Assembly: GCA_023823795.1 (NCBI GenBank)
Contig: CP085710.1
Location: 5,021,463-5,085,462 of the forward strand
DNA from: Bacillus sp. F19
GTDB lineage: Bacteria > Bacillota > Bacilli > Bacillales > Bacillaceae
DNA: 64,000 nt
Reading direction: 5' to 3'
Each line of letters starts with the position of its first letter. The first letter of the stretch is position 1. The notes below the pieces were generated by a model, which ran no database searches, was not told the DNA's origin, and saw only the letters and a list, made by a program, of their open reading frames with translations. Positions 10,918 through 32,060 of the stretch are shown in pieces. A program made the translations under genes and the position numbers.

Positions 10918-11346
10918 GTGTTTCCTATAAAAACATATCAAAAGTTTTTTCAGCAGCTTCTGCTGTTATACCGTCCTTTTGAAAACAGACTGAATATGGA
11001 GCTTGCCAAACACGATTTATACAGAGCTCAATGGTCTGTTTTGCATTATTTATGGAATTACGGAACAGCTGCGCTTGTTGAGCTTGCCGATTATCAAAGT
11101 GTTGAAAAGCCTACCGTTACAAGAACCATCAGCCGCCTTGAGGAACTGGGGTATGTAGAGCATGTTCCCGGCAAGGATAAGCGTGAAAAGAGAATGCAGC
11201 TTACGGACCTTGGGAGAAAGGTATACGGGGATGTTCGAGTAACAATCGATGACTATGAGCAGGAAATTTTAAAAGGAATTTCAGAAAACGAACAGCTTGA
11301 GGTGATCCGGATCATGAAAGATATTCGGAACAATATTAGAGAGTAA
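10918..11346 (+). CDS. MarR-family transcriptional regulator
   Basis: About 139-142 residues. A winged helix-turn-helix is centred on ALVELADYQSVEKPTVTRTISRLEELGYVEHVPGKDKREKRMQLT, the conserved MarR recognition helix and wing (the DKRxxxxxLT motif is intact). The next gene (12 bases on) is a truncated MFS pump, so it probably regulates that efflux gene and itself through the palindromes upstream. The start is unclear: GTG at 10918 overlaps the only good ribosome binding site (GAGGTG), whose spacing instead points to ATA at 10927. The codon there may be a mutated ATG. Confidence 0.88.
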   Translation: MFPIKTYQKFFQQLLLLYRPFENRLNMELAKHDLYRAQWSVLHYLWNYGTAALVELADYQSVEKPTVTRTISRLEELGYVEHVPGKDKREKRMQLTDLGRKVYGDVRVTIDDYEQEILKGISENEQLEVIRIMKDIRNNIRE

Positions 11347-16987: not shown

Positions 16988-17656
16988 TTATTTATTCCTT
17001 CGATATAAATCCCGGCTCTTGAAACCCTTCCCAAGAATCATTTTCATTTCATCACGCCGTTTTGCTCTTGTTCCCCCTTGTTTTGCGCTATAAACATAAC
17101 GGGCCCAATCCTTACGATATCCTTGGGTGAGTGATTGATAGAAAGCAAATAAATCTGGAGTATCCTGCAAATCTTTCTCTACATCTGATATAAATCCGAT
17201 ATAATCATCAACACATTGACTTGCTTTTGCAGATGTGTGATTTTTGCTTTTAGAGTCTTCTTTTAGACCAACAACCGTAAAGACATCATCCAATCCGACC
17301 ATACGGGCAAATTTTATGCTGCTTGTCCCAACATAGCCATTTTCATCTGCCCCTAAGCCAACTAATAATTCATCTCGATGGATATAGGCAGGATATACTT
17401 TATTTCCCTTTTTAGGATAAGCCAAAAAGAGATAGCCGTTTTTATTTAAATGATTTTTATCGATAACCTTTTTTACAAGTTTCTTTAAAGAGTCCATATC
17501 TAATACAAATGCAAAAATAAGGTCATAAGCATGATCAGCTAATTCTGTGTCATAATCCGTTAATTCTGCTAAATAATCTGCACCATTTGGTAAGTGCAGT
17601 ACAGCTGTCTCTTTATATTTTAGTAAGTTTAATTTTTCTGTGATTTTTTTGGCCAT
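16988..17656 (-). CDS. DUF3052 plus YdeI/OmpD-associated (OmdA) domain protein
   Basis: 222 residues. The first 90 residues (VLHLPNGADYLAEL, YDLIFAFVLDMDSLKKLV, NGYLFLAYPKKGNKVY) resemble DUF3052-type domains. The last 60 (FYQSLTQGYRKDWARYVYSAKQGGTRAKRRDEMKMIL) match the YdeI/OmpD-associated family signature in which a conserved Arg-rich helix ends the protein. The biochemical function is not established. It lies just left of the outermost rlmH-like attachment repeat, so it is probably the first gene outside the island. Confidence 0.75.
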   Translation of the reverse strand: MAKKITEKLNLLKYKETAVLHLPNGADYLAELTDYDTELADHAYDLIFAFVLDMDSLKKLVKKVIDKNHLNKNGYLFLAYPKKGNKVYPAYIHRDELLVGLGADENGYVGTSSIKFARMVGLDDVFTVVGLKEDSKSKNHTSAKASQCVDDYIGFISDVEKDLQDTPDLFAFYQSLTQGYRKDWARYVYSAKQGGTRAKRRDEMKMILGKGFKSRDLYRRNK

Positions 17657-17717: not shown

Positions 17718-17740
17718 TTATTATGATAAGGCTCACCGCA
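17718..17740 (-). repeat. rlmH 3'-end-like repeat (putative att site, distal)
   Basis: On the minus strand the sequence reads TGCGGTGAGCC followed by TTATCATAATAA, in frame GEPYHN. This mirrors the rlmH end GGGGAACCGTATCATAAG (GEPYHK). It lies in noncoding DNA, in the same orientation as rlmH, about 14 kb downstream of it. See findings. Confidence 0.6.
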
Positions 17741-17780
17741 CCATTCTAACGGCGAATTTCTATTATAAGCTATGGGAACA

Positions 17781-17812
17781 AAAAAGGACAGAGAGTCTCA
17801 AACCCCCTGTCC
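17781..17812 (-). terminator. rho-independent terminator
   Basis: GGACAG and CTGTCC with inner G-T/G-C pairs, followed on the minus strand by a run of T. It would end the transcript of the degenerate protease locus. Confidence 0.7.
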
Positions 17813-17886
17813 GCCTGGTATGAATTTTGTCTTTTGTCGGTACCGGACACCATTGCCCTTATACGCTGACACCATAGCTAATTACG

Positions 17887-20593
17887 TTATTTTAAACCTA
17901 ACTGACTTAACACCATATCCAACGTAACACCCTTATACGTATCTTTCGCTTTAGGGGCATTTGGAACAGAGTCATTTTGTAATCCATAGTTTTTAATTAC
18001 ATAGTCCATATCCTTTTTATCAACAGTGCCGTCGAAGTTCAAATCGGACCCTGATGTATTTTTACCCCAATTTTTTTGAAGTTCGATTGCATCTAATACA
18101 TCAATGACATGATCTTTATTAACATCTCCCGCTTTAGCTGGAGATAATAAGTAACCCATTCTTCTACCGATTGCTTCTCCTCGAGAGTCATACGATAATA
18201 CTAATGGCTTATACATCGTAAAATGACCTGGTACATCTACCTTAAGTGTATAAGCATTTTTATCAGCTTTCAGTCCATCAGCATTGTAGCTGCCGGATTT
18301 GTTTGTTAGAGGAGCTTCAGCAACTGTTGTTCCATCATAAGACGTGACTATAACTTTTGCACCAATAGTTCTATGGTCTAAAGCGTTGTTACGTTCGCCT
18401 GTTAAAGGATTCAACATTCCCTCAAATTGCATTGATCCCTCTAACCTTGAAAAAGTTGAATTCAGTTTAAAAGTCTCAATATACGTATAAACATTATTAG
18501 TTTGTACATTGGATTGATCAATGGTCGTTCCCTTCATCTCATTATCAAACCAGTTGATAGGCGAACTTTTCGAATACATATTAGATGTTTGTAAGTCGAA
18601 ATTTACTAACTGCATATCTTCTGGTAAAGCTTTAGTTCCTAAATAGTTAAATGTAATCGTATAATACTTATTTAAAGTATCTGATGTGGTTGTTACAGTT
18701 ACTTCTGCATTACCATATTGCTTCACTGCATCACTTACAACAACATTTTTAATGGTGCCATAGTCTCCATAGTGTTTCATTACCGGAATGGTAATCTTTG
18801 CCGTTTTTAAGTTTTTAATATTGTTCGAACGGAAGGAATAATTTACTGTTTCTCCAGTCGAAATAGATTGTTTATTTGCTTTTAAATAATAATATGGGGT
18901 AGTATCAGTAACAAAAGCAACCCGCAGCATTGCCGTAGCATCTGCAGTAAAGTTTCTCGCAGCATCCATAGCATAGAACTGAACTTTTAATGGTGTTGCT
19001 TGTTTTCTCACTAGGATTTGATCCTTGTAATCCCCATTTTTATCAGTGTAGATTGGCTCATATGGCCATGGTCCATTGTAAAAGGAAACAACTGAATTGT
19101 TTGATTGATCAACAGGAATACCTAAGCGCTTTGCCTCTTCTGCTTCAGGATCATTTACATTGATATTAAAGTCATATAAAAATTGTCCTTTTGTATCAAG
19201 CTGACTTAAATTATATTCAATCACTTTTTGATCTAACGAATCAAAGGTGGAGGTCATCGTTGGTTCTCCAACCTCGTAGATGAAAGCGGCTTCTTTAGTG
19301 AATGTTTTCCCTTGATTATTTGTACCAATCATTCTTAATTTGTATTGACCCGTTTTGGCAATGACAAATTGACTGTTAATCGGATTTTTCTTATCACCCG
19401 TATACGGGTAGTAAGCCCCTGCGAATCCGCTAGGATTACTTAATAGTTGGTTTTCATTCAATAATAGAGCATTGTAAGATCCAACTAAACCAAGATCTTC
19501 ACCTGTTTTAGCATCTTGTAATACCACATCTAAAGTCCTCATATGTGACTTTAATTGGAACTTAAATCCAAGGTAAGGAACTGCATTTTCTGGCCAAGCT
19601 GTATCACCAGAGTACATAGGATTAGTAATCGTAAATGTATCGATTCCTTCGTTTACTACTCGACCGCCAAATGGAATTTGGTAGGTTTCTGTTGGATCTT
19701 CATCATTTGTAAATACAATATATCCCTCATATGTTCCTTTTTCAGCTGTTTTAGGAATAGACAGATTAAATTTGATGACTCTCTGGCTATTTCCTTCTAT
19801 ATTGACTGAAGTTGGCCCATCTAATGTGACATTATTTAAAGCTGCATCCTTTGAGTCTCTTATTCCAGTTTGGAATTTCACATTTACATTAAATGTTTTA
19901 GCTTTTTCACTTCGATTATTTAACATGAAATTTCTAACTTCTGAAATATCCTGGTGTAGACGTTCTAGTCCATCATAAGGCGCATAATTCGCAACATTTG
20001 CTTCATCCGCTTTTAACTGTTCGCTATTCGCGGTAGGTGGGTCTATCGAAAATGTTGTATTGCTCCAAACTGATTTTACTGCTTTTGATTTTAATAGATT
20101 TTTAATTTGGTTAGCTGGCAGGCTCATCGATACACCATTAAATGCATGTTTATAGGAATGGTGAATCTTGTAATCTACCGCTTTATTTTTTTCGTCTGTT
20201 AAAATTTGTCCTAAATCCTGAGTGAAGGTTTCATGATTTTTGTACTAAACTTGCTGCTTCCTCTTCAGATAATGATTGACCCTCTGCAGCTGCCTCTATT
20301 TTGGCCACTTTAACAGGCTTATTGGCAAATTCCACAATAACTGATGTTTGTTTGTTTGACTGTAAGTCAATATCCGATGAAATTTGGAGTCCAGATGTTT
20401 CATTGGTAGAAAGTTCATGAAGAGCCGCTCTTTGTTCAGATGTTAAATTAGCAAGCAAATTTTCAGTATTCGAATAACTAACCGCTTTCGCAGTAGTTGG
20501 TACTTGTCCAATAGAACCTAAAATAAAGCTAGATGATAGAGCAGCAATAACTAAGCTTTTGACAATCCTACTTTTGCGTGCTTTTTTTTTCAT
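17887..20593 (-). pseudogene. degenerate Vpr-like protease lacking its catalytic domain (frameshifted)
   Basis: The locus encodes a signal peptide and an inhibitor-I9-type propeptide (ATG 20593, TTGGAGG ribosome binding site; MKKKARKSRIVKSLVIAALSS). The frame is then lost at about 20231-20240, where a run of five A would read on correctly with four (VQN-HETFTQDLGQIL). The second frame continues with KIHHSYKHAFNGVSMSLP, matching the propeptide end of the neighbouring 1464-residue protease (REYQHAFNGVAMTLP). It reaches YAPYDGLERLHQDI, equivalent to YIPLPGIEDLHGEDV just before the S8 domain of the neighbour. There it jumps straight to the Fn3-like region (NNRSEKAKTFNVNVKF), so the roughly 450-residue catalytic domain is absent. 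C-terminal Fn3-like modules and a dockerin-type repeat pair (DVNKDHVIDVLDA and DLNFDGTVDKKD) remain. Either a dead paralogue or, if the frameshift is an error, a secreted non-catalytic relative. Confidence 0.8.
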
Positions 20594-20725
20594 TTTTTTC
20601 CTCCAAGTCACTTTATTACATATGTAAGTGCCGATAGATAACGAAACGATTTTAAAAGATAGTTTTAGACCTCCTGCCCTTCGTTTTTCCCATAACAAAT
20701 TACTTATGTATTTATAACTATACAA

Positions 20726-21038
20726 AGTATTTTAAATATTGTAAATTGGGGGAAATTTAAATAAATGGTTATTCAAAAGAACGCATATTTCATTAGCATT
20801 TTTATGAAGTAAATAGTCAATTAATATCAAAATTTCAATAATTTCACAGAAATAAATTATAAAATTTGTGGTAAAAATAATTTTTTGAAATTTTTGTAAA
20901 AAAATAAGGACAAGCTTTACCTGCGATTCCCCCAATACCCTTCATGAAAATTTCAAGCTATTATATTTATTTTTCTGAATATTTAATATGAAAGAAGTCT
21001 TTTTTTATTTATTTTGAGAAAAACAGGGGGTTATAAAG
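20726..21038. other. AT-rich intergenic region with a G-run motif
   Basis: No gene seen. It contains TTGGGGGAAATTT at about 20746-20758 and a CCCCC run near 20931. Similar G-run elements occur upstream of the intact protease paralogue (28120-28170, 28222). A promoter for the protease locus must lie here, but no clear -35/-10 pair stands out in the AT-rich background. Confidence 0.4.
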
Positions 21039-21128
21039 ATGAAAGGATTATGGAGAAAAATTTTTCAAGCTACAAATGTGCTTACATTAGCCAGTAGTAG
21101 TATTTTGGGAACTTCCGTGATTAAATAG
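21039..21128 (+). CDS. 29-residue open frame, signal-peptide-like
   Basis: ATG at 21039 is preceded at normal distance by AGGGGG. The peptide has a basic start (MKGLWRKIF) and a hydrophobic, Ser-rich stretch (LTLASSSILG), then stops. It could be a short secreted or membrane peptide. More likely it is the surviving N-terminus of a truncated exported protein, as the DNA beyond it belongs to an unrelated gene fragment on the other strand. Confidence 0.35.
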   Translation: MKGLWRKIFQATNVLTLASSSILGTSVIK

Positions 21129-21216
21129 ATTCCTTTATCCATCATTGCTTCTCCATTAAGGTATACCCTAGTGCCATTACACCCCCTCCTTCAATTTGTC
21201 CCTGATACCCAATAGG
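21122..21216 (-). pseudogene. fragment of xanthine dehydrogenase molybdopterin subunit
   Basis: The minus strand encodes GYQGQIEGGGVMALGYTLME and, one base shifted, EAMMDKGIYL. This resembles the conserved QIEGG-GxALxE block near the C-terminus of xanthine dehydrogenase/aldehyde oxidase large subunits. Restoring one A after ATGGA rejoins the frames. Both ends are cut: by csaA on one side and by the 29-residue frame on the other. Only about 30 residues remain. Confidence 0.55.
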
Positions 21217-21223
21217 GCATGTA

Positions 21224-21556
21224 TTATGAGATTCTTGTTCCATTACTAATGAGTTCATCGGGCTTTAAAAGAACAACATCCCCCTCTTCCGGAACCCCAC
21301 CTATTACCAATACCTCAGATTTAAACCCCGCAATACGCATTGGCGGAAAATTAACTACGCCTACCACTTGACGTCCACAAAGTTGTTCAGGATCATATCT
21401 ACGTGTAATTTGAGCGGAAGAATGTTTTATGCCAATCTCTTCTCCAAAATCAATTTCTAGTTTTATAGCAGGTATTCTTGCTTCAGGAAAAGATGTTGCA
21501 TTGATGACCGTGCCAACACGAATATCTAGTTTTAGAAAGTCTTCAATATTTGCCAT
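21224..21556 (-). CDS. csaA: CsaA, tRNA-binding-domain export chaperone
   Basis: 110 residues forming a single EMAP-II/tRNA-binding OB fold: [15 protein letters not shown] at the start, [41 protein letters not shown] in the middle. CsaA of B. subtilis is a dimer that binds exported preproteins and SecA. Length matches. It is 38 bases downstream of the EamA exporter gene in the same direction and may be cotranscribed. Confidence 0.92.
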
Positions 21557-21593
21557 ACTGATCTAACCACCTTTTTACAATTTCCAATATCAC

Positions 21594-22490
21594 TCATTTC
21601 TGAGTTACCCTCAGTTCCTTTTCGCTGCCAGAATTTTTAGACGACCATATTAATATTCCGATTCCTAGCATTAAGAGGAAAATCCCTAACCATGAAGTTA
21701 TATTTAAGTTTTCGCCTAATATGAAAACTCCTAATAATGCTGCTGTTAACGGTTCTGCTAACGCAAGTGTAACTGCAGTTGATGAAGAGACATGGATAAG
21801 ACCTTTGGCAAAAAGGAAATATGCTATCCCAGTCGCCATCATCCCAAGTTGAAGACTTACACTCACACCTCGAAAACTCGTTATCCAAGACATGTCAAAA
21901 ACAAATAAAAATGGAGATAAACAGATTGCACTAAGAGTGAAAACGACTGCTACTACTGATAATGACGAATGGTTTTCAACTAAAGTTCTACTTATAAGAG
22001 TATAACTAGCAAAGGATAACCCAGCCCCAAGAGCCATTATTATTCCAACAGGGTCTACATATACTGATTCTTTATTGTCAAAGAGCATTAGACAACCTAA
22101 TATTGATAGGAAAGTAGAGTACCACCAAACTTTTGATGGACGAATCTTTAAATATAACCATTCTATGAGACCTGATAAAATAGGTGCACTCCCAATTGCT
22201 ACCCCTGTCCCAATGGCCACTCCCGTAATCGAAACTGCCGAGAAAAATAATGGCTGATACAATGCCATACTTAAAGAAGCCATTATCGTTGTCTTGATTG
22301 GCCAATTTTTAAAGTTGAATTTCCCTATTATCAGAACAATTAATACTAAAAATATACCTCCTACCGCTAAGCGAGTAGCCCCAATAGCAATCGGGTGTGC
22401 TGTTTCCGGCGCAAGTGCCTGAGTTGTACCCGTGGTCCCCCAAAGTATTGCTGCAAGTAATATTAAAAAAGGAGACAATTTTCCCTTCAT
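21594..22490 (-). CDS. EamA/DMT-family transporter
   Basis: 298 residues with ten hydrophobic segments and two EamA repeats (LLAAILWGTTGTTQALAP in the first, GLSFASYTLISRTLVENHS opening the second). I start at ATG 22490, where GAGGTGAGC is well placed; 26 further upstream codons are hydrophobic but lack a ribosome binding site. DMT exporters move amino acids, nucleosides or drugs; substrate not known. The AraC-type regulator next to it (same strand, upstream) is the likely controller. Confidence 0.88.
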   Translation of the reverse strand: MKGKLSPFLILLAAILWGTTGTTQALAPETAHPIAIGATRLAVGGIFLVLIVLIIGKFNFKNWPIKTTIMASLSMALYQPLFFSAVSITGVAIGTGVAIGSAPILSGLIEWLYLKIRPSKVWWYSTFLSILGCLMLFDNKESVYVDPVGIIMALGAGLSFASYTLISRTLVENHSSLSVVAVVFTLSAICLSPFLFVFDMSWITSFRGVSVSLQLGMMATGIAYFLFAKGLIHVSSSTAVTLALAEPLTAALLGVFILGENLNITSWLGIFLLMLGIGILIWSSKNSGSEKELRVTQK

Positions 22491-22582
22491 TTTGCTCACC
22501 TCAATAAAAAAGATAAAAAGAATATTCAAACTTATAATAGAAAATTCCTTAAAAATTTTCTTTACCAAGTTTAATATCCTTT

Positions 22583-23284
22583 TTATCCATTATTAAGAAT
22601 TCTATATTTTTGTGGAGATATTCCCTCACAACTAACAAACCACCTTGTAAACGATGAAGAATTCTCAAAACCTAATTCCTCACTAATCCTCGACATGGAC
22701 CATACTGTTGAATTTAATAGATGTTTAGCCTCTTTCAAACGCAGTTCAGATATATAAACTTTTAGGCTTTTCCCGGTTTTTTTCTTAAACCATGCAGAAT
22801 AATATACTGGATGGTAATGCTCCATTTTTGCTAAAGTTTCTAATCTAATTGGCTCCTTATAATTTTTATGAATATATTCAATAGAAGGGGGTTTAGAGAT
22901 TTGAAGTTTGTTGGTCACATATCTAGTCAAATCTACTAAGGAGGATATGTTCTCCTGACTCTTCGCCTCTTCCAATAGCAAATAACGGATAGAAGCCCAT
23001 TGTTTATCCAACTGTATATACATGCTGCTTGTATTCTCTGGTAAATATTGTATTGGAATATCTAAGATTAAAAATTCATTTCTGTCTTTGGATCGGTAGT
23101 TATGATCAAACTTTGGAGGAAGATAAAAACAGTAATCTGAGTTAAGATTTATCTCTTGCCACTTCGTTTGTATATCTAAGGTGCCTTGTAATGGAAAAAG
23201 AAATTGGCCAAACTCATGTTGGTGAGATTTAAACTCTCTAGAATAGGACCTTTTCTCACAAGTTACTTGGTTGACACTTTCCAT
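22583..23284 (-). CDS. AraC-family transcriptional regulator
   Basis: 233 residues. The N-terminal part is a cupin-like sensor (SHQHEFGQFLFPLQGTLDI, DYCFYLPPKFDHNYRS). The C-terminal 100 residues contain two helix-turn-helix motifs (IRLETLAKMEHYHPVYYSAWFKKKTGKSL and SMSRISEELGFENSSSFTRWF), the AraC/XylS signature. The ribosome binding site is AGGGGGGAG. It precedes the EamA exporter by 92 bases in the same orientation. Confidence 0.9.
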   Translation of the reverse strand: MESVNQVTCEKRSYSREFKSHQHEFGQFLFPLQGTLDIQTKWQEINLNSDYCFYLPPKFDHNYRSKDRNEFLILDIPIQYLPENTSSMYIQLDKQWASIRYLLLEEAKSQENISSLVDLTRYVTNKLQISKPPSIEYIHKNYKEPIRLETLAKMEHYHPVYYSAWFKKKTGKSLKVYISELRLKEAKHLLNSTVWSMSRISEELGFENSSSFTRWFVSCEGISPQKYRILNNG

Positions 23285-23431
23285 TTTACTCCCCCCTTAA
23301 TCTTACTTTAGATATATTATAATTCTAAACAAAGATCTAAATAAAGAATTTGCAAAAAAAGGGAGCACGAATTGATTTAAATCTTGTTTAGGATTTCTTT
23401 TCCGATAACAACTTCAACCCTCTGCTAACCA

Positions 23432-23480
23432 CTATTTGTGATACGGTTCACCGCAACTAATCTAAATGAGGTTAATAAAC
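23432..23480 (-). repeat. rlmH 3'-end-like repeat (putative att site, internal)
   Basis: On the minus strand it reads TGCGGTGAACCGTATCACAA then ATAG, in frame GEPYHK-stop, in DNA with no rlmH gene. Similarity to rlmH extends about 48 bases upstream (CAAGTTTATTAACC versus CAGGTTTATCGGGC), with one extra base and internal stops. It looks like a decayed copy of the last 16 codons. Same orientation as rlmH. Confidence 0.7.
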
Positions 23481-23484
23481 TTGA

Positions 23485-23576
23485 TTACTATCATATTCTA
23501 CATCATTTTTATTAGTAAAAAGAATCACTTAAAATCCTTTCCACGTTCTAGCGGATATCTTAATCAATAAAAAATA
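23485..23576. other. intergenic DNA beside the internal att-like repeat
   Basis: Together with 23285-23431 this is noncoding sequence between the AraC gene and the protease terminator. I see nothing recognisable apart from the rlmH-like repeat. Confidence 0.4.
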
Positions 23577-23577
23577 A

Positions 23578-23607
23578 CAAATGCCAAGACGTTGCCTTGG
23601 CATTTGT
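23578..23607 (-). terminator. rho-independent terminator of the subtilisin gene
   Basis: AAATGCCAAG and CTTGGCATTT arms; on the minus strand it is followed by a T-rich stretch. Confidence 0.85.
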
Positions 23608-23616
23608 TTGCTTCTG

Positions 23617-26600
23617 TTACTTTTTCGGTTCAAGACCGATTGCACGTAAGTAGTCTTCTAATCCTTTATTGCCGTGTTTTTCTTTTGGTTTTTTATTTTT
23701 TGGAGCATCAGGTCCTACTCGTAAGAAGTTCTTTTCAATGAAGCGAACATCTATTTCGTCAACAATACCGTCTTGATTTAAGTCTTCTTCCTTATGATCC
23801 TTTCCGTAAAAAGCAACCACTTGGATGACATCAGAAATATCAATCATTTTATCGCCATTCACATCTCCCGCAGCAGCTGTAGGCTGTTTTGCCGCAGCGA
23901 ATACATACCGTCCAATATCCTCGCCCCAAGTCGTTTTTGTACCTAAATTCACTTTTTGAATGCTCTTTAAATGTCCAGGAGCTTCAACAACAATATCGTA
24001 TGGTTCTTTTGAATACGGGATATTTTTCACACTGAAAAATCCTTGTGCTTGGTCAACTGTTCCTGGATATTTCACTCCGTTAGAATCCTGCGCGTATACT
24101 TTTGCTCCAACCTTAGTTAAATCTTTAGTCGATTGACCGCTGAATCCTTCAAGGCGCATATATGAATTAACCCATGAATGCTTTGGAATAATTTTATAGC
24201 TGTCAATTTGGTTGAACAGAGTCATTTTTGTTGGTTCAGACTCTCCAAACTTCGTGTAGCTGAAATCTTTCGTATTTTCTTCTCCGTCCATAGTATCCCA
24301 TAGAATATAGAAATGATCGTCTACTAGCTTAAACGTTACATCAAGGAACGGGCTGTCCCCGCTAAATCCTTGAAATCCATTTCCGCTTATATGAGCTCCT
24401 ACGTTAACGCTCTTTTTAGACCAGGTATAAACTGGGTGCTCCTTTACGACTGGTTGGTCTACAGTTACAGTTAAGCCTTTGTCTTGTGCATATTGTTGGA
24501 ACTCTTTATTCACTTTTACATCTAAAAATTCAAAATTCTTATAAAAACCAAGATCGTACGTACCTGACATAAGTTTCTCAACATTGTTCAAACTTAACGT
24601 CATTGTTAACGTATCGTTTTTATAGACTTTTTCTTTATCGTAGGTCGGCACTACATAAGGCGTACCTTCCTTAACAAAGGCATACGGATAGAATTCATTT
24701 AATAAATGGGCGTTTGTAGCCTTATCCATTGGGAATAAAATAACGGTTGCAGGCCCATTCTCAATGTCTTTCTTCTCAATACCAAATTTCACGTCTCCGT
24801 TCGCTTCAACAGGAAAATCTCCATCTGGGAATACTTTCTGATTTAGATAATACCAAAGTGTGTTCGAAGACTGTGTCATGCCAAGTGGTGCTAATTGTTT
24901 TGTGCCTTCATCGTATAGATTTGCATGAACCCAAAATGCGTTATGAGCTTCACCGTTAAGTGTTTCTTGTGTAAAGTCTGAATCTTTTAACTCATACACC
25001 TTACCTGGAGCTTTATCTTTAAAGGTAAGCTTAGGTAATGTATTGTCAACAACAAATATTTGCTCTTTCTCGTAAGTTTTACCGTCAGCATCTACTGCTC
25101 TAAACTTCAGTGTATATTGACCTTCTGGTAATACTGATTGTGGTAGGTTAATATCCGTTATCTCATCTTTCGGATCTCCAATAAACGGATAGTAAGAAGC
25201 GCCATAGCTTATAAATAAATCTTGGTCTATCGGTGCTGTTGCAGCATCGATAGGTGTTGGACTTGTGCTTCCTAGTGCACGACCGTCTTTGTCATAGATA
25301 ATCGCTCGAACATTTTTCATCGGGCTATTTATTTTGAATTTCAAAAATCTCGTAGGACCCGCCATAAATGGATGTACAGGATTCCATAACACGTTGCTGA
25401 TGGCTGGACTATCCGTTTCAATACTTTCAATCCCTTTATCAACTGCACGAACAGCGAACGGCACACGATAGCTTTCTTGTGGATTTGCATGATTGACAAT
25501 ATTCACATAACCTTCGTATCTGCCCGTTTTTGCTGTTCCTGGTACACGAATCGTCGCTGTTAAATCAGCCGATTGTCCCGGTTCAACAGTAACCGACTGA
25601 GCAGATGCCGTCATTTCTACCTTATTGGACACTGCGTCAAGAACACCACTTTTAGCCTTGGAATATTCATAACTGATATCAAAAGCTTTTTGCCCGGTTC
25701 CGTTATTTTTAATAACCATTTTACGACTGTCTTCATTCGTATCGTTTTCTTTTTTATAAATCGTACCATAAGCAATTGAACCTGTTTCTTCGTCAATCGT
25801 AACAAGATTGCCATTATTATCCCTATTTTGCGTCTTGTCCATAACTTTAACAGATACATCTGCATGAACGGATTCTTTTACATCGACTAATCCTGCTCCT
25901 ACTTCATATACAGAATAATCGCCAGTTAATTTATCTGATGTATTCATTAACGCCGCTTTCACATCAAACGGAGTGTAGTCTGGATGTGCTTGTAAAATAA
26001 GAGCAGCCATACCAGCTACATGAGGCGATGCCATTGACGTTCCAGAAATACGTGCGTATGCAGTCGAATAGTCGATTCCATCTTCTGGACTATGAACGTA
26101 TTCCGGATAAGTGGAATAGACAGATACACCAGGTGCTACTACATCAGGTTTGATGTCATAGTTCTTCGTAACAGGTCCTCTTGAGCTGAAGCCCGCTAGA
26201 TGATTTCCTTCTGTTACAACTGAACCAACATTACTAAAAGTAATGGAAGAAGATTCTGATGCTGCTTTTAAACGCTCTCCATCTGCTTTCGTTATACGGA
26301 AAGCAGGGATGAAATTGGTTTCATTAGCCAGATAACTGTCGATTTCGCCATCGACATTGTTATACACAATCACAGCGGCTGCTCCCGCTTTTTTAGCATT
26401 GACCACCTTTTCGGCTAACGCGTACGCTCCACGCTGAATTAAAGCTACTTTTCCTGTTAAGTCAATTGGTTGACCATTTGCATCTTTAAAATCGTTCTCC
26501 CCACCTAAACCAACATAGACCACAGGATACGATTTGTTCACTAACGTTTCTAAATGATCATGATAACCTTTACCCAACAGCTTCATGTTGTTGAACGTTT

Positions 26601-28011
26601 CACTGCCAACGGTCGCTGATGCTGTAGGAATGCCCATTGGGAAGTCGCTTGCTCCAACTGTAATAGCAAACGCTGCTGTTCCTGGAGAACCAAGCGTTTT
26701 CTCACCCGGTCCTGAGTTACCTGCTGCTACTGTACATGTCACACCAGCAAGTGTAGCATTATTAATAGCAATGGATTCTGGCATTAACGGATCGTTTACG
26801 GGAGCACCCAAAGACAAGTTAATAACGTCCATTCCATCTTGTACAGCTTTATCGATACCTGCAATAATATCAGTAGACCATCCGCTCCCCCATGGACCTA
26901 ACACGCGGTAACTATATAAATCAACATCAGGCGCTACACCTAAAGACGGAAAATCAACACTATTTTCCCCTTGACCTGCAATCGTACCTGATACGTGAGT
27001 ACCGTGAGACGTATAATATGAACCGTTAGGATCAGTCGGCTTTCCTGCATTTACCCAATCTTGATACGTCGTTTCGGTTGGATCAGCATCATTATCGACA
27101 AAATCCCATCCCTTTACAGTTGCCGGATCAATAGTCGTTGAATCTTCTCCATCTTTTTTACGATATCCTTTATATGCGTCCGTTAAATCCGGATGCTTAT
27201 AATCAATACCTGTATCAAGGACGCCAACTTTAATTCCTGCACCCTTAACGTCTTCTCCATGCAAATCTTCAATACCTGGAAGAGGAATATAATTCTCTTT
27301 CAACGTCTTGGTAGAAGTATTTTGCGCAGACACACTGAGCTTCTCTGATAACGATGTCGTTGTGGTCGATTTTCCATTACTAGCTGTCAAATCATTCGTA
27401 TTGGAACCTTCTGGTCCGACTGGATCAATTTTTACAGCGCGATCTGCAAAAATTTGGCTTACTAAGCCAGACTCTAATAGTTTTTCCACATCTGTTCCTG
27501 GGAGCGTCATCGCTACTCCGTTAAACGCGTGCTGGTATTCTCTAGTAATCTTAATTTCTGGTTGTGAAGCAGGAGTAGACGGAGTGATGGCATTAACTCC
27601 TGCTTTTTGTTGCTCCATTCCTTGAACAAACTCTTTAAACTTTTTATGATTATCCTTTACCTTTTTAGTAGCTTCTTTCAACGAAATCTCGTTTCCATCT
27701 ATTTGCTGCTGAATGACTGCTACTTCTGCTGGAGCTTGTTTAAATTGTACAATAACGCGAACTTGCTCTGAGCTGTTGACGTTGATTTGTGGTGAAATTT
27801 TTATTTCACTCTCAGTGCTAATTTTATTCATTGCCTCAATCTGTTCAGGCGTTAAATGATATGTCCCTGTTTGAGAACGACTTGGAATCGGACCTTGAAT
27901 CGCGCTTTGGATTTGGTCATCAGCCAAAACCTTAAATGGAACGATAGAAGACATCAAAATACAACTAATTGCTGTATTAGCAACTATTTTTTTAAACTTA
28001 TTTTTCCCCAA
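23617..28011 (-). CDS. Vpr-like S8 serine protease with PA, Fn3-like and dockerin domains
   Basis: 1464 residues, secreted. Signal peptide about 1-31 (start TTG, AGGAGGAG upstream). Inhibitor-I9-type propeptide about 80-195. Subtilisin domain about 255-715 with the catalytic triad Asp266 (VGVLDTGID), His336 (SHGTHVSGT) and Ser659 (SGTSMASPHVAG), plus oxyanion Asn432 (AAGNSGPG). A protease-associated domain is inserted at about 475-600 (VALIQRGAYALAEKVVNAKKAGAAAVIVYNN), the Vpr layout. Several Fn3-like modules follow. The C-terminus has a dockerin-type pair of Ca-binding loops (DVNGDKMIDISD, DLNQDGIVDEID). Much longer than B. subtilis Vpr (about 800). Likely an extracellular protease for peptide scavenging. 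A decayed paralogue lies 3 kb away. Confidence 0.93.
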   Translation of the reverse strand: MGKNKFKKIVANTAISCILMSSIVPFKVLADDQIQSAIQGPIPSRSQTGTYHLTPEQIEAMNKISTESEIKISPQINVNSSEQVRVIVQFKQAPAEVAVIQQQIDGNEISLKEATKKVKDNHKKFKEFVQGMEQQKAGVNAITPSTPASQPEIKITREYQHAFNGVAMTLPGTDVEKLLESGLVSQIFADRAVKIDPVGPEGSNTNDLTASNGKSTTTTSLSEKLSVSAQNTSTKTLKENYIPLPGIEDLHGEDVKGAGIKVGVLDTGIDYKHPDLTDAYKGYRKKDGEDSTTIDPATVKGWDFVDNDADPTETTYQDWVNAGKPTDPNGSYYTSHGTHVSGTIAGQGENSVDFPSLGVAPDVDLYSYRVLGPWGSGWSTDIIAGIDKAVQDGMDVINLSLGAPVNDPLMPESIAINNATLAGVTCTVAAGNSGPGEKTLGSPGTAAFAITVGASDFPMGIPTASATVGSETFNNMKLLGKGYHDHLETLVNKSYPVVYVGLGGENDFKDANGQPIDLTGKVALIQRGAYALAEKVVNAKKAGAAAVIVYNNVDGEIDSYLANETNFIPAFRITKADGERLKAASESSSITFSNVGSVVTEGNHLAGFSSRGPVTKNYDIKPDVVAPGVSVYSTYPEYVHSPEDGIDYSTAYARISGTSMASPHVAGMAALILQAHPDYTPFDVKAALMNTSDKLTGDYSVYEVGAGLVDVKESVHADVSVKVMDKTQNRDNNGNLVTIDEETGSIAYGTIYKKENDTNEDSRKMVIKNNGTGQKAFDISYEYSKAKSGVLDAVSNKVEMTASAQSVTVEPGQSADLTATIRVPGTAKTGRYEGYVNIVNHANPQESYRVPFAVRAVDKGIESIETDSPAISNVLWNPVHPFMAGPTRFLKFKINSPMKNVRAIIYDKDGRALGSTSPTPIDAATAPIDQDLFISYGASYYPFIGDPKDEITDINLPQSVLPEGQYTLKFRAVDADGKTYEKEQIFVVDNTLPKLTFKDKAPGKVYELKDSDFTQETLNGEAHNAFWVHANLYDEGTKQLAPLGMTQSSNTLWYYLNQKVFPDGDFPVEANGDVKFGIEKKDIENGPATVILFPMDKATNAHLLNEFYPYAFVKEGTPYVVPTYDKEKVYKNDTLTMTLSLNNVEKLMSGTYDLGFYKNFEFLDVKVNKEFQQYAQDKGLTVTVDQPVVKEHPVYTWSKKSVNVGAHISGNGFQGFSGDSPFLDVTFKLVDDHFYILWDTMDGEENTKDFSYTKFGESEPTKMTLFNQIDSYKIIPKHSWVNSYMRLEGFSGQSTKDLTKVGAKVYAQDSNGVKYPGTVDQAQGFFSVKNIPYSKEPYDIVVEAPGHLKSIQKVNLGTKTTWGEDIGRYVFAAAKQPTAAAGDVNGDKMIDISDVIQVVAFYGKDHKEEDLNQDGIVDEIDVRFIEKNFLRVGPDAPKNKKPKEKHGNKGLEDYLRAIGLEPKK

Positions 28012-28656
28012 TTTACTTCTCCTCCTGAAAACGACATGATTCGTTTGTCTTTTTAAAATATTTCGATAAATTACTTTATTTGTTTTATTGTACTTAGGAA
28101 TTTTCGTATAGTAAATGGGGGGATTTTAATGTAAAACTCATAAAAAATGGGGGATTTTAATGCTAAAATATTGTAAAATTTCATCTTTTTGTTTTTGTAG
28201 TTAGGTTTTTACCTAATTTGAACTTGGGGGAAATCCATTTTGGAGGAATTAATTATTATAATATTTTACCAATTTCATATTTTTGTTTTTAATTTGCTAG
28301 GATTAGATTTGCCTCATGATTAATTCATTTTTTTCTATTATTGTTATTTCCTTTACTTCATGATAGTTTCTTAGTTCCTAATGATAAAATTCCTTCCTAT
28401 GATCTCAAATCCATACTAACGAACCTCATTTACTTACTAATTTTCTTAATACCTACTGCTACCAATAGCATTATCAACAGAAGTGTGCTTTCTTAAATAG
28501 TTTTCTGCTAACTCCCGTTGCATTGTCGTTCCTGTTATCCATTAACCTCTATTTGATAAGAAAGGGTTTTTCTCGCAAAAATATTTTATGGTAAGATGTT
28601 TAGGTCGTGTATCTACTATCTGACACATTTACATTCATCTAAGAAAAGAGGTATTT
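28012..28656. other. long AT-rich divergent intergenic region
   Basis: 645 bases between the protease gene (minus) and an MFS gene (plus). I see no gene. Notable are two near-identical direct repeats with the core TGGGGGATTTTAATG (about 28120-28142 and 28146-28165) and a third G-run TTGGGGGAAATCC near 28224. All are upstream of the protease start and resemble the element upstream of its paralogue. Confidence 0.5.
28120..28168. repeat. tandem G-run direct repeat upstream of the protease
   Basis: AAATGGGGGGATTTTAATG and AAAATGGGGGATTTTAATG occur about 25 bases apart, about 110 bases upstream of the protease start. Possible regulator binding sites or promoter-linked repeats. Confidence 0.5.
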
Positions 28657-29847
28657 ATGCACCCCACAAAATTATCCAAGCGACATTGGTTGCTCATCTT
28701 AACACTTTCTTTATTAACATTTGTTCTCGGGACAAGCGAATTTGTTATTGTCGGAATCTTAACCGATATTTCCTCGAGCCTTCATATGACAAATGCAAAA
28801 GCAGGCACACTCGTTTCTGCGTTTGCAATTACATTTGCCATCGCCACACCACTAGTGATGTCAGCAACAAGTCATTTTCCAAAGCGTAAATGGATGTTGT
28901 TTTTGATAGGATCTTTCATCGTCCTGAATGCTTTGTGTGTAATCTCGACAAGCTACATCATGCTCCTTGCACTTCGGATTATGACAGCGATTGTAACAGG
29001 AGTATTAATCTCTCTAGCCATGATTGTTGCAAGTGAAACCATGCCGATTAAAAAACGCGGACTTGCTATATCATTCGTTTTCGGTGGTTTCACACTTGCA
29101 AATGTCGTTGGAGTGCCAATTGGTATTGTCATCTCCGAATCGTACGGCTGGAATGCCACTTTCATGTTAACTACTTTCCTAGGAGGATTGGCGTTTTTGG
29201 CATCTTTTTTCGTCTTGCCTACTAGACTCAGCCAAATACGCAGTTCGATACGGGATCAGTTTTCTTTAATGACCAATCCAAGAATTTTGATGGCTTTTTT
29301 CATTCCTGCTCTCGGATTTGGCGCAACTTATACCGTCTTTACGTACCTTGTTCCTATCTTGAAGGGAATGGAAGTACCAAATCATTCAATTAGTTTAATC
29401 TTATTTGGTTACGGATTTATCTCGATTTTCAGCAACATCCTCGCCGGTAAAATTGCCAGCCACAATGCAATCGGTCGCCTTCGGTTTGTTTTTCTCGTGC
29501 AGGCAGTTGTTCTGACAAGTTTATTTTGGACTACAAATCATTTTATTTTAGGACTGGCAAACATTGGCTTGATGTCGTTAATGGCCATCCTCTTAACAAC
29601 ATCTACTCAGCTTTATTTAATAGACCTCGCCGGAATTTATCAGCCAAAAGCAACAGGACTCGCTGCTTCACTTATGCCAGTGGCAAGCAACGTAGGTATC
29701 GCTTTTGGTTCTGCATTAGGCGGAATTGTATACCATCAAGGGAATTTAATGAATGTCACATGGGTCGGTGGAGTAGTTGCAGTCTGTGCAAGTCTGCTAA
29801 CTTTCTTTTGTCATCTTTTAGATCAAAAACAAAAGAAATCAGCATAA
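28657..29847 (+). CDS. MFS transporter, DHA1 family (AraJ/PbuE-like)
   Basis: 396 residues with twelve hydrophobic segments. The start of the protein (LILTLSLLTFVLGTSEFVIVGILTDIS) and the SFVFGGFTLANVVGVPIG block are typical of DHA1 efflux proteins of the AraJ/PbuE type. These export sugars, purines or drugs. AGAGGT lies just before ATG 28657. Monocistronic, with its own terminator. Substrate not known. Confidence 0.88.
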   Translation: MHPTKLSKRHWLLILTLSLLTFVLGTSEFVIVGILTDISSSLHMTNAKAGTLVSAFAITFAIATPLVMSATSHFPKRKWMLFLIGSFIVLNALCVISTSYIMLLALRIMTAIVTGVLISLAMIVASETMPIKKRGLAISFVFGGFTLANVVGVPIGIVISESYGWNATFMLTTFLGGLAFLASFFVLPTRLSQIRSSIRDQFSLMTNPRILMAFFIPALGFGATYTVFTYLVPILKGMEVPNHSISLILFGYGFISIFSNILAGKIASHNAIGRLRFVFLVQAVVLTSLFWTTNHFILGLANIGLMSLMAILLTTSTQLYLIDLAGIYQPKATGLAASLMPVASNVGIAFGSALGGIVYHQGNLMNVTWVGGVVAVCASLLTFFCHLLDQKQKKSA

Positions 29848-30167
29848 AAGGGAAGCAACAAACGCTTGGCATGCTTCCTATGGTATCTCCAGAAGAACCA
29901 AAATCTTTCCATGCCATAATTAATGATATTACAGTAATCCCTTTATAAAAAATTGAAAAAAAGAAGTATCAAGGACGTTTAGTTGTTCTTTGATACTTCT
30001 TTAATAAATACTGCTTACTATGATTGGGTTTCGCTTTTATTAACAGTGACTATTCTATACAATTTTAACTAATATTCTTTATTACTTTTCAAAGTTATTC
30101 TTATTTTTATTTAGAATCATCATTATAGTTTTTATTTACATATTTATAATGTAATTATTTACTTCCT
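29848..30167. other. intergenic region after the MFS gene
   Basis: Holds the terminator at 29960-30002 and AT-rich DNA. A stretch at about 30010-30036 weakly resembles the rlmH 3' end on the minus strand. No gene seen. Confidence 0.35.
29960..30002 (+). terminator. rho-independent terminator of the MFS gene
   Basis: AAGAAGTATCAA and TTGATACTTCTT pair around a loop with a few extra GAC/GTT pairs, followed by TTAATAAATA. Confidence 0.75.
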
Positions 30168-30486
30168 AAGAAGTGGGAGTTTAAATTAAACAATCAAATT
30201 TATGCCGGGTTAATCTCTCAAGCAGGAGCTTCTATACAATTTCAAGGAGCTGGAAACTGGATTGCAACTCTTCCAAAATTGCAGCAGCAACAAATTTTCA
30301 GAGAAGACTTTACTATGTCTAGTAGATGGGATGAGGAGTATGGTGATCGCCAAACGGAGATTGTTTTATATGAATAGGACTGAAATTGAATCGGCTTTGG
30401 ATAATTGTTTATTAACGGATGATGAAATGAGCTCAGACTGGTCATTATTTGAAGATACACTCCCACCATTTATAAGTGCAGATTAA
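30168..30486 (+). pseudogene. remnant of CobW/ZigA (YciC)-type GTPase, C-terminal domain
   Basis: The frame reads IYAGLISQAGASIQFQGAGNW, then IATLPKLQQQQIFRED and WDEEYGDRQTEIVL. One base later it continues YMNRTEIESALDNCLLTDDEM and DWSLFEDTLPPF. These are the conserved blocks of the CobW C-terminal domain in zinc-related GTPases (AGLxxQAG, YGDRxxEIVF, ALDxCLLTDEEM, FEDPxP). The N-terminal GTPase domain (about 280 residues) is missing and there is a frameshift near 30370, so this is gene debris. Confidence 0.8.
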
Positions 30487-30678
30487 GTTAATGAGTTCAT
30501 CCAAATGAACAGTAAGTAAAACGCCCTTTAAGTGCATCTTGTGCTTCGGATTAAACATCCACTACACTATTACCGTTTGATTTAGAGGATGTTTGTCCGT
30601 CGCTCTCTTGGAATGTGGATAGGCATGGTGCATTTACTTTAGATAATGAGAGATAAATCTCTTCCTACTCTTTTAAAG

Positions 30679-30704
30679 GCTTCCGAAGATACAATTTCGG
30701 AAGC
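30679..30704 (-). terminator. terminator of the lysR remnant
   Basis: GCTTCCGAA and TTCGGAAGC form a perfect nine-base stem. On the minus strand it is followed by CTTTTAAAAG. Confidence 0.7.
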
Positions 30705-30732
30705 TCTGCGCTTCACTATCAATAGATACTAC

Positions 30733-31092
30733 CTATATTTTCTCTATTTCCACTGACCTAAATGACATGCCGATGAATCGTTCTATAACTCTTTTCATGA
30801 AACCTTCAGCTGCTTTACTCAAATATTTGTCGTTACGGTAGAAGATATCAAGTTCTCTCGTTGGTGCATTTTCAATAGGTATTGATCGAATACCTAGCGA
30901 TTGGAAGTTTTCGATAAGTTGGCTGGGTTGAATAGTAGCACCAATGTCTTTTTGAACGAGTTGAAACAATGATGTAGCCGAGCCGGTTTCCATAACACTA
31001 TTAATCGTTATTCCTTGTCTATCACACCATCTATCGATTAAGTCACGACCGCATTTCCCTTGAGGATACATGACAAGTGGTATATCTACCAA
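30733..31092 (-). pseudogene. LysR-family regulator, C-terminal remnant
   Basis: 119 codons matching the second half of a LysR substrate-binding domain: PLVMYPQGKCGRDLIDRWCDRQGI, METGSATSLFQLVQKDIGATIQPSQLI, REL-DIFYRNDKYLSKAAEGFMKRVIE. The DNA-binding N-terminus and first half of the sensor are absent. At about 31093-31100 the sequence switches to an unrelated frame on the other strand, so a recombination junction is likely. Confidence 0.8.
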
Positions 31093-31101
31093 CTCTGATC
31101 A

Positions 31102-31371
31102 GTTTATTCACAAGTAGAACCTTCAATGGCTTTTCAATTTGGTCTACCCTTATTATTAGTAAGGGAAGAAGATACTGACGCAAATAATGGAATTTGGGCA
31201 GGGGGAATTGCCCCACTCAACCTGTTTATAGTTTGGCATTCTGAAACTCAAACTGTAGATCAATTCTTTAACACTCCTGAATGGAGATCAGCCTTTGCAA
31301 ATTGGTGTGCACAAGTAAGAAATGCTTTTTATTTTCAGACAGAGCCTCAGTTCAAGTACAGATGTGACTGA
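31102..31371 (+). pseudogene. C-terminal remnant of an unidentified protein
   Basis: About 89 codons (SQVEPSMAFQFGLPLLLVREE, GIWAGGIAPLNLF, FFNTPEWRSAFANWCAQVRNAFY) open at the left with no proper start. The ExxMAxxxGLPLLLVRE pattern recalls the end of TIR/SLOG-like nucleotide-binding effector proteins, in which an ageing E-x-x-(M/L)-A helix is followed by a hydrophobic strand. I cannot confirm this. It is fused head to head with the lysR remnant. Confidence 0.45.
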
Positions 31372-31391
31372 TAAACTGGAACTTTAGCAAC

Positions 31392-31439
31392 AAGTCGAAA
31401 ATATACAAGGTTTTGTTCACCTTTATATATTTTCGACTT
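31392..31439. terminator. rho-independent terminator (bidirectional)
   Basis: AAGTCGAAAATATA and TATATTTTCGACTT arms flank a loop; T/A runs on either side. Confidence 0.75.
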
Positions 31440-31580
31440 ATTCATACAAAAATTTTGTTATCAAAAACAAAATGATTTACTTCATAAAAACAGCTTTTAA
31501 TGAAAGTAATTCACCAGTTGAAAGATGTGTCAAGAACAGTGAATCGTTCTTTAAAATTTTCACTAAAAGTAAATTTGTGC

Positions 31581-31604
31581 TTACTTATGATACGGTTCCC
31601 CCCG
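31581..31604 (-). repeat. rlmH 3' end, putative SCC-like attachment site
   Basis: The last codons GGG GAA CCG TAT CAT AAG TAA of rlmH are the reference copy of the repeats at 23432 and 17718. The equivalent position (end of orfX) is the SCC integration site in staphylococci. Confidence 0.6.
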
Positions 31605-32060
31605 ATTAATCCGAAAAGCCCGATAAACCTGCTCCACCAAAATCAATCGCATTAACTGATGAGGAAACGTCATTTTTGAAAAAGAAAGCGTATCATTCGC
31701 CCGCTTCATGACCTCGCTGCTCAACCCCAGTGATCCGCCAATAACAAATGCAACTTTGCTTTTTCCATAGGTAGCAAGGCGATCCAAGTCAGATGCAAGC
31801 TGCTCGGAAGATTTCATTTTTCCTTCAATCGCAAGGGCGATGACGTGGGTGTCTTCCGAGATTTTGGATAAGATCCGTTCGCCTTCCCGCTGTTTTACCT
31901 GCTCCATTTCGGATTCGCTTAGGTTTTCAGGCGCTTTTTCGTCAGGCAGTTCGATGATTTCGATTTTTGCATATGGTGTTAATCGCTTTAAAAACTCATC
32001 GATTCCCTGTTTTAGATATTTCTCTTTTAACTTTCCGATTGTACAAATTGTTATATTCAC
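31581..32060 (-). CDS. rlmH: 23S rRNA (pseudouridine-1915-N3)-methyltransferase RlmH
   Basis: 159-residue SPOUT-class methyltransferase acting on the 70S ribosome; the length equals that of B. subtilis RlmH (YydA) and staphylococcal OrfX. Motifs: SAM-binding knot [31 protein letters not shown], and C-terminus [25 protein letters not shown]. It is the first core gene to the right of the accessory island. Upstream is yyzF with a DnaA-box cluster. Confidence 0.96.

Follow-up and report, generated by a model that had tools for sequence, protein, structure and literature searches.

An eroded island, very probably a composite of inserted units, at the 3' end of rlmH in Bacillus sp. F19

Staphylococcal cassette chromosomes (SCC) carry methicillin resistance in staphylococci. 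Integron gene cassettes form arrays of short units that lie between repeated sites and are moved by a recombinase that they do not encode themselves. The 64,000-nucleotide stretch of the Bacillus sp. F19 genome analyzed here (the window; G000:C1:5021463-5085462) contains a 14-kb block that adjoins the 3' end of rlmH and is bounded by copies of the last codons of this gene. SCC likewise integrate at the 3' end of rlmH, are flanked by repeats of it, form tandem composites and include units without ccr genes, in agreement with PMC10061031. Enterococcus cassette chromosomes (ECC) use the same site and, in PMC6222049, have attachment (att) sites of about 50 bp with the TATCATAA motif and a dyad, together with ccrAB-type recombinases; the site, the motif and dyad, and the recombinase type all resemble those of the window and its relatives. 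Islands at rlmH with PolA-SSB primases come from a survey that starts from elements with a helicase, a primase and a recombinase; it covers several Bacillota and reports second ends located via the last ~12 bp of rlmH, composites and predicted empty sites (PMC10061031), again as seen here. SCC, ECC (PMC6222049) and Bacillota rlmH islands with recombinases, primases and composites (PMC10061031) are already in print, and the window island belongs to this published kind, in a decayed state.

The block is very probably an eroded composite island at the rlmH end whose units were inserted by Ccr-like large serine recombinases. Such enzymes would have added two or more units, probably at least three, in succession at the site that the last rlmH codons make up. 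The crossover presumably occurs at the GA of GGT-GA-ACC, so that each insertion would rewrite the last rlmH codons with the copy of the element and keep the gene intact. The evidence comprises island breakpoints that fall at the repeats, a relative with an empty site, repeats on the same strand at many related loci, dyad-symmetric sites, Ccr-like recombinases close to rlmH in relatives and one recombinase relic within the island.

The target gene rlmH (31581..32060, minus strand; PF02590, E 5.9e-59, the sole match in the genome) ends in the codons E|PYHK that make up the attachment site. The copy at the gene end, recognized by motif and matrix, occupies 31585-31601 on the minus strand, with the predicted crossover GA at 31597-31598 as judged from the dyad register. 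Two further minus-strand copies lie at 23436-23452 (R2; putative crossover GA at 23448-23449, left arm AACCTCATTTAGAT, right arm GTGGTTAGCAGA) and at 17721-17737 (R1; putative crossover GA at 17733-17734), the latter joining the chromosomal flank. The recurrence of the rlmH end on the same strand at these three places, noticed earlier in a sequence-only reading of this DNA, is therefore confirmed. That reading also saw about 48 bases of rlmH at 23.4 kb; the copy there is partly rlmH-like, but what lies left of the core is the arm AACCTCATTTAGAT, which recurs at internal sites of other genomes.

A degenerate 17-mer with up to 3 mismatches has 4 matches in the window against 0.73 expected, a number reached in 0 of 100 shuffles; the fourth of these, at 11301, carries 3 mismatches. 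Genome-wide (5.6 Mb), a 17-mer of somewhat lower stringency, allowed at most 1 mismatch, has 4 matches, all exact and 3 of them in the island, whereas the reversed-pattern control has 2. An att weight matrix derived from 46 internal sites in other genomes gives R2 44.6 bits, the rlmH end 29.8 and R1 11.2; the next-best score in 32 kb, both strands included, is -0.5, and among 20 single-base shuffles of 13.8 kb, scored on one strand, the highest value is 7.4. Chance matches, an interpretation to which the two control matches and a fourth genomic match lacking an insertion lend something, are hardly credible given the window shuffles, the matrix scores, the same-strand bias of the motif and the empty site described below; the repeats stand above chance, whereas similarity no greater than that of random intergenic alignments would, by the terms of the sequence-only reading, have refuted it. 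The fourth genomic match (G000:C1:1242204; L157:6205-6221) is intergenic, scores 30 bits, is kept in the relative G006 and shows no insertion; it is either a secondary site or a chance match. When the complete flanks of the three copies were aligned, no clear similarity was seen past the core, and a repeat search listed the 23.4/31.6-kb pair as no more than one family (D7) of many.

The breakpoints of the island are defined by G006, whose rlmH is 95.6% identical to that of the window over 480 bases. In this genome, rlmH is followed directly by the sequence found right of the 17.7-kb copy, with a similarity of 89.8% extending over 5.7 kb, and the 14 kb between rlmH and that copy are absent. Since the G006 rlmH joins the DNA to the right of the distal copy, the island breakpoints coincide with the repeats. 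The empty-site relative with a single rlmH end that had been predicted for such an island accordingly exists.

Same-strand repeats of the rlmH end recur at other rlmH loci. Downstream regions were available for 104 loci, namely 27 of 41 genomes and 77 of 80 named loci (L032, L034 and L035, which duplicate G003, G017 and G019, were left out; the analysis of L133 and L158-L164 consisted of a motif count). Of the 19 relatives outside the genus, seven had been chosen for PF07508 near rlmH, which raises the recombinase frequency in that group. A 14-base motif occurs in these regions (1.36 Mb) 48 times on the same strand as rlmH and once on the opposite strand, compared with 1 same-strand and 0 opposite-strand occurrences upstream of 80 rlmH loci (0.78 Mb). 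At least one extra copy is present in 33 of the 104 loci, the window among them. Successive copies delimit 48 intervals, the shortest 588 and the longest 17,603 bases long, with a median of 3.6 kb; because no more than 10 kb downstream was covered for the named loci, long elements remain open-ended and short closed intervals are over-represented. A strict pattern for internal sites of the TGAGG type matched 10 of 150 genomes, with 0 control matches, a figure that is not a census.

The internal sites have the form TACGGT-GA-ACCGTA, flanked by outer arms, for example AACCTCATTTA and TAAATGAGGTT. The arms are symmetric in register 0 only (4.52 of 8 positions, against 1.8-2.9 at ten other offsets), and the rlmH-end copies resemble att sites whose dyad surrounds the GA. 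The arms at the two ends of one interval match at 7.88 of 14 positions on average versus 5.99 after permutation, a value reached in 0 of 20000 permutations. The match is far from general, 20 of the 48 intervals scoring at least 10 and another 20 at most 7. Arm type is also correlated with the codons at the end of rlmH. The lysine codon is AAA in 13 of 13 rlmH sites with GAGGCAAA arms and AAG in 24 of 26 with TGAGG arms; the histidine codon is CAC in 10 of 15 sites with TGGTAAA-type arms versus 7 of 89 others (Fisher p 1.6e-6). The stop codon was excluded from this comparison because sites were sorted by an arm motif that overlaps it. If insertions do rewrite the last rlmH codons, the end of the gene records the last visitor.

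Candidate enzymes are encoded close to rlmH in relatives. In 8 of 40 relatives, rlmH has a PF07508 gene no more than 27 kb away, and 11 of the 77 named loci contain a recombinase frame of at least 200 bits within 10 kb of the gene. For ten recombinases from such loci, the best NCBIfam match is CcrB (E 3e-35 to 8e-122), at no more than 408 bits, which is below the NCBI cut-off of 900. Pfam domains identify the serine type, with Resolvase and Recombinase domains in seven of the seven proteins scanned and a zinc ribbon in six. A tree built from 22 sequences, each 450 aa or longer, has groups that follow the arm type: 9 recombinases with GAGGCAAA arms together with a clade of 5 partner recombinases, 3 with TGGTAAA, 2 with TGAGGTTTT, 2 with GTGAGGGTAAAATAG and 1 with GCACATAG. 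This agreement between clade and arm type is a concordance that shared descent alone could explain.

Of 16 recombinase frames that end at or cross a site, 15 run through the att crossover (L040, L044, L045, L049, L055, L058, L061, L091, L092, L093, L100, G002, G010, G016 and G029). The C-terminal tail is thus read from the opposite strand of rlmH or from the neighbouring unit and would be expected to change on excision. Separately, three PF07508 genes lie off the rlmH contig in the genus relative G001 (G001:C8:97909-111314, partly L133).

Comparison of distant hosts points to movement of such units. The unit at the rlmH stop codon of Paenisporosarcina sp. HGH0030 (L103) is 98-100% identical to that of G003 for about 1.4 kb, although the rlmH genes are only 74.8% identical; the same unit occurs in G002, with 97.9% identity to L103 over 2.36 kb. 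Between G007 and Fictibacillus nanhaiensis (L082), 1.35 kb are 94.9% identical, up to a point 20 bases from the next L082 site, and an internal site of G026 and the rlmH site of Peribacillus glennii (L056) are followed by 2.9 kb at 97.3%. Host pairs that share these units have rlmH genes 73-75% identical. For the comparisons of G002 with L103, G007 with L082 and G026 with L056, the sequences had been cut 17 bases after the GA at rlmH. In three pairs, the 300 bases right of the GA are 95-99.7% identical, whereas the 150 bases on its left are 69-73% identical. Copying of the rlmH end by homologous recombination or segmental duplication, with no site-specific recombinase involved, would account for the intact subtilase and the subtilase-like pseudogene (24% identical) that adjoin R2 and R1, respectively. 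Already disfavoured, this explanation is very unlikely considering the abrupt change of identity in the shared cassettes, the matched arms within intervals, and the recombinase clades that track arm type.

Most of the closed intervals show no recombinase of their own. A recombinase or a trace of one was detected by tblastn in 9 of the 48 closed intervals and not in the other 39. The closed copies of the shared units in G002, G003, L056, L082 and L103 contain no recombinase trace by tblastn (the G026 copy is not closed), and neither G003 (93% complete) nor the L103 and L056 genomes yielded a PF07508 gene. Among 17 named genomes with closed recombinase-less intervals, seven carry no PF07508 gene at all. 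Cargo was analyzed for 30 proteins, 28 from intervals without a recombinase trace and 2 from G005, which has one; 25 of the 30 have a Pfam match at 1e-5, and they include a Roc-COR GTPase, a PvuRts1I-like restriction enzyme, proteins with RES, FRG and GmrSD domains, permeases and regulators. One rlmH cassette encodes a protein of the Cass2 family, an integron-associated effector-binding family (L116:3082-3567), and a 2.3-kb interval encodes PtuA (E 6e-143) and PtuB (E 1e-58), the Septu pair (L053:10779-12700).

It seems about evenly balanced whether the rlmH end of Bacillaceae and relatives serves as an integron-like platform, in which a mixed pool of short cassettes, with only the arms of an att site, is moved in trans by the Ccr-like recombinases of other elements, one clade per arm type, and the window is a worn-out array. 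The cassettes meant are mostly 1-6 kb long and carry one to few genes (the Septu pair, a modification-dependent restriction enzyme, regulators, exporters). As with integrons, arrays of short units lie between repeated sites, and movement would depend on a recombinase encoded elsewhere; unlike integrons, the recombinases are of the serine type, the site is a dyad at the end of a protein-coding gene, and several combinations of recombinase and arm type exist. Bacillaceae seem to be a reservoir of rlmH cassettes, in which several recombinase-arm pairs and a compact defence system are represented, and these pairs make trans-mobilization testable. In the open-licence PMC literature, preprints not included, we found no description of short recombinase-less rlmH arrays in Bacillus and its kin with arms matching separate recombinase clades.

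Within the window, the boundaries of the individual units are less clear than those of the island. The sequence-only reading proposed two tandem cassettes of 5.7 and 8.1 kb, but of the 14 arm positions only 4 and 3, respectively, agree between the two ends of an interval, which is below the permuted mean of 6 and among the lowest 10 of the 48 intervals. Together with the mismatched ends, a decayed site accompanied by a recombinase relic near 30.02 kb leaves this division unsupported. The candidate decayed att copy (GCGAAACCCAATCATAGTAAGCAG; 30011..30034, minus strand), which splits the proximal interval, aligns with the left end of the recombinase-bearing G016 element; the site and the next 140 bases score 45, against a shuffle maximum of 34 (n=2000), and the best island tiles against the G016 left end fall near 30.02 kb. 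Adjacent to it, two tblastn pieces at 29832-30000 (plus strand) correspond to the C-terminus of a Ccr-like recombinase with an internal stop (E 2.7e-5 for the 13.8-kb island, rlmH excluded). One island unit may be read as having once carried a G016-type recombinase, and the whole as a decayed composite of probably three or more eroded units. At the rlmH junction, 390 bases that start about 100 bases from the gene have a counterpart of 90% identity about 100 bases from an internal site of Metabacillus halosaccharovorans, and the first 80 bases after the two sites, compared with each other, score 33 (shuffle maximum 32, n=500).

A second possible recombinase relic, at 31487..31606 (plus strand) beside rlmH, is weak because its last 9 codons are rlmH read on the opposite strand. 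It is identical to the G016 recombinase at 18 of 40 positions, or 10 of 31 outside rlmH; the left end at rlmH and the G016 element are 73% identical over 127 bases, about 40 of which belong to rlmH. The initial E of 1e-7 was rejected once the rlmH part was removed, with no protein match left.

Several observations weigh against the composite island built by recombinases. The arm-match test failed, so neither window interval is shown to have moved as a unit; no significant match came from a recombinase profile run over all six reading frames of the island (best E 0.029); past the rlmH stop codon, 51 of 2000 shuffles reach the DNA score of the relic beside rlmH against G016; and R1 is the weakest copy, yet above the shuffle maximum. 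Gain in the window strain and loss in G006 are equally possible. Furthermore, because orthologues of the island gene for an exporter of the major facilitator superfamily (MFS), 83-86% identical, lie downstream of rlmH in four of the seven other genus members (G001, G004, G005 and G007), part of the block would seem to be old resident DNA; G002, G003 and G006 have only paralogues of at most 37% identity. Genes for an AraC-type regulator and an EamA-type transporter, paired in the island, also adjoin each other downstream of rlmH in G001, G004 and G007. Had relatives carried the same segments with no breakpoint at the repeats, the sequence-only reading would have counted this against itself; the breakpoints do lie at the repeats, but the MFS gene has no strict bounding copy of the rlmH end in G001, G004 and G005 and sits inside a bounded interval in G007. 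It is accordingly possible, if somewhat doubtful, that the genus has long carried much of the block as resident DNA, which G006 lost through excision between rlmH and R1, and that it is not a recent arrival in the window strain. In the other loci compared, at E 1e-15, the pieces of the second subtilase, the gene for a tRNA-binding-domain protein and the LysR fragment have no match, and the intact subtilase has only a partial one (L094, 33-41%); the GC content of the two intervals (0.378 and 0.350) is below that of the flank (0.405). These features do not fit long residence.

The SCC-like interpretation of the sequence-only reading is right in kind as regards att sites, a bounded island accessory in character and an empty site, but not as regards two tandem cassettes. 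Insertion at the rlmH 3' end with same-strand repeats is shared with SCC. The host, in contrast, is not a staphylococcus but a Bacillaceae bacterium congeneric with G003. PF07508 has no match in the window, as already noted for ccr-type recombinases, or in the whole genome, where ccr genes had been suggested as worth seeking, so no intact ccr recombinase gene accompanies the element. The Pfam scan of 10 island and flank open reading frames detected no helicase or primase of the SCC core operon, and neither interval has the inverted repeats or matched ends of an SCC unit. The recombinases of relatives remain under the CcrB cut-off and often overlap the site. As the island departs from SCC in several of these respects, it is not filed as SCC. 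ECC are 21-78 kb long with ccrAB in PMC6222049, compared with intervals of 5.7 and 8.1 kb without it here, and the helicase, primase and recombinase from which the PolA-SSB survey starts (PMC10061031) were not found in the window island, and most closed intervals lack a recombinase trace. Considering the absence of a family recombinase from the genome and the mismatched interval ends, the units are probably no longer self-mobile.

Outward from rlmH, the island starts with an 81-aa gene fragment (31126..31371, plus strand), 96% identical to a stretch beside an internal rlmH-end copy of M. halosaccharovorans (L033), and a fragment of a LysR-type regulator comprising the substrate-binding part (30733..31092, minus strand; PF03466, profile positions 105-207 of 209). 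The decayed site is followed by the MFS exporter (28657..29847, plus strand; PF07690) and an intact subtilase of 1464 aa (23617..28011, minus strand; PF00082, PF02225, PF06280 and PF05922), which precedes the 23.4-kb site. Beyond that site, all on the minus strand, are the AraC-type regulator (22583..23284; PF12833), the EamA-type transporter (21594..22568; PF00892), a tRNA-binding-domain protein (21224..21556; PF01588), which we take to be CsaA-like, and a second, apparently broken subtilase (17887..20725). The latter consists of two pieces (20231-20725 and 17887-20127) in which Pfam detects no catalytic domain, and it is the C-terminal piece that shows the 24% identity to the intact subtilase. 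Past the 17.7-kb site, the flank begins with a minus-strand gene for an OmdA-domain protein (16988..17656; PF13376), the same gene that is found directly 3' of rlmH in G006.

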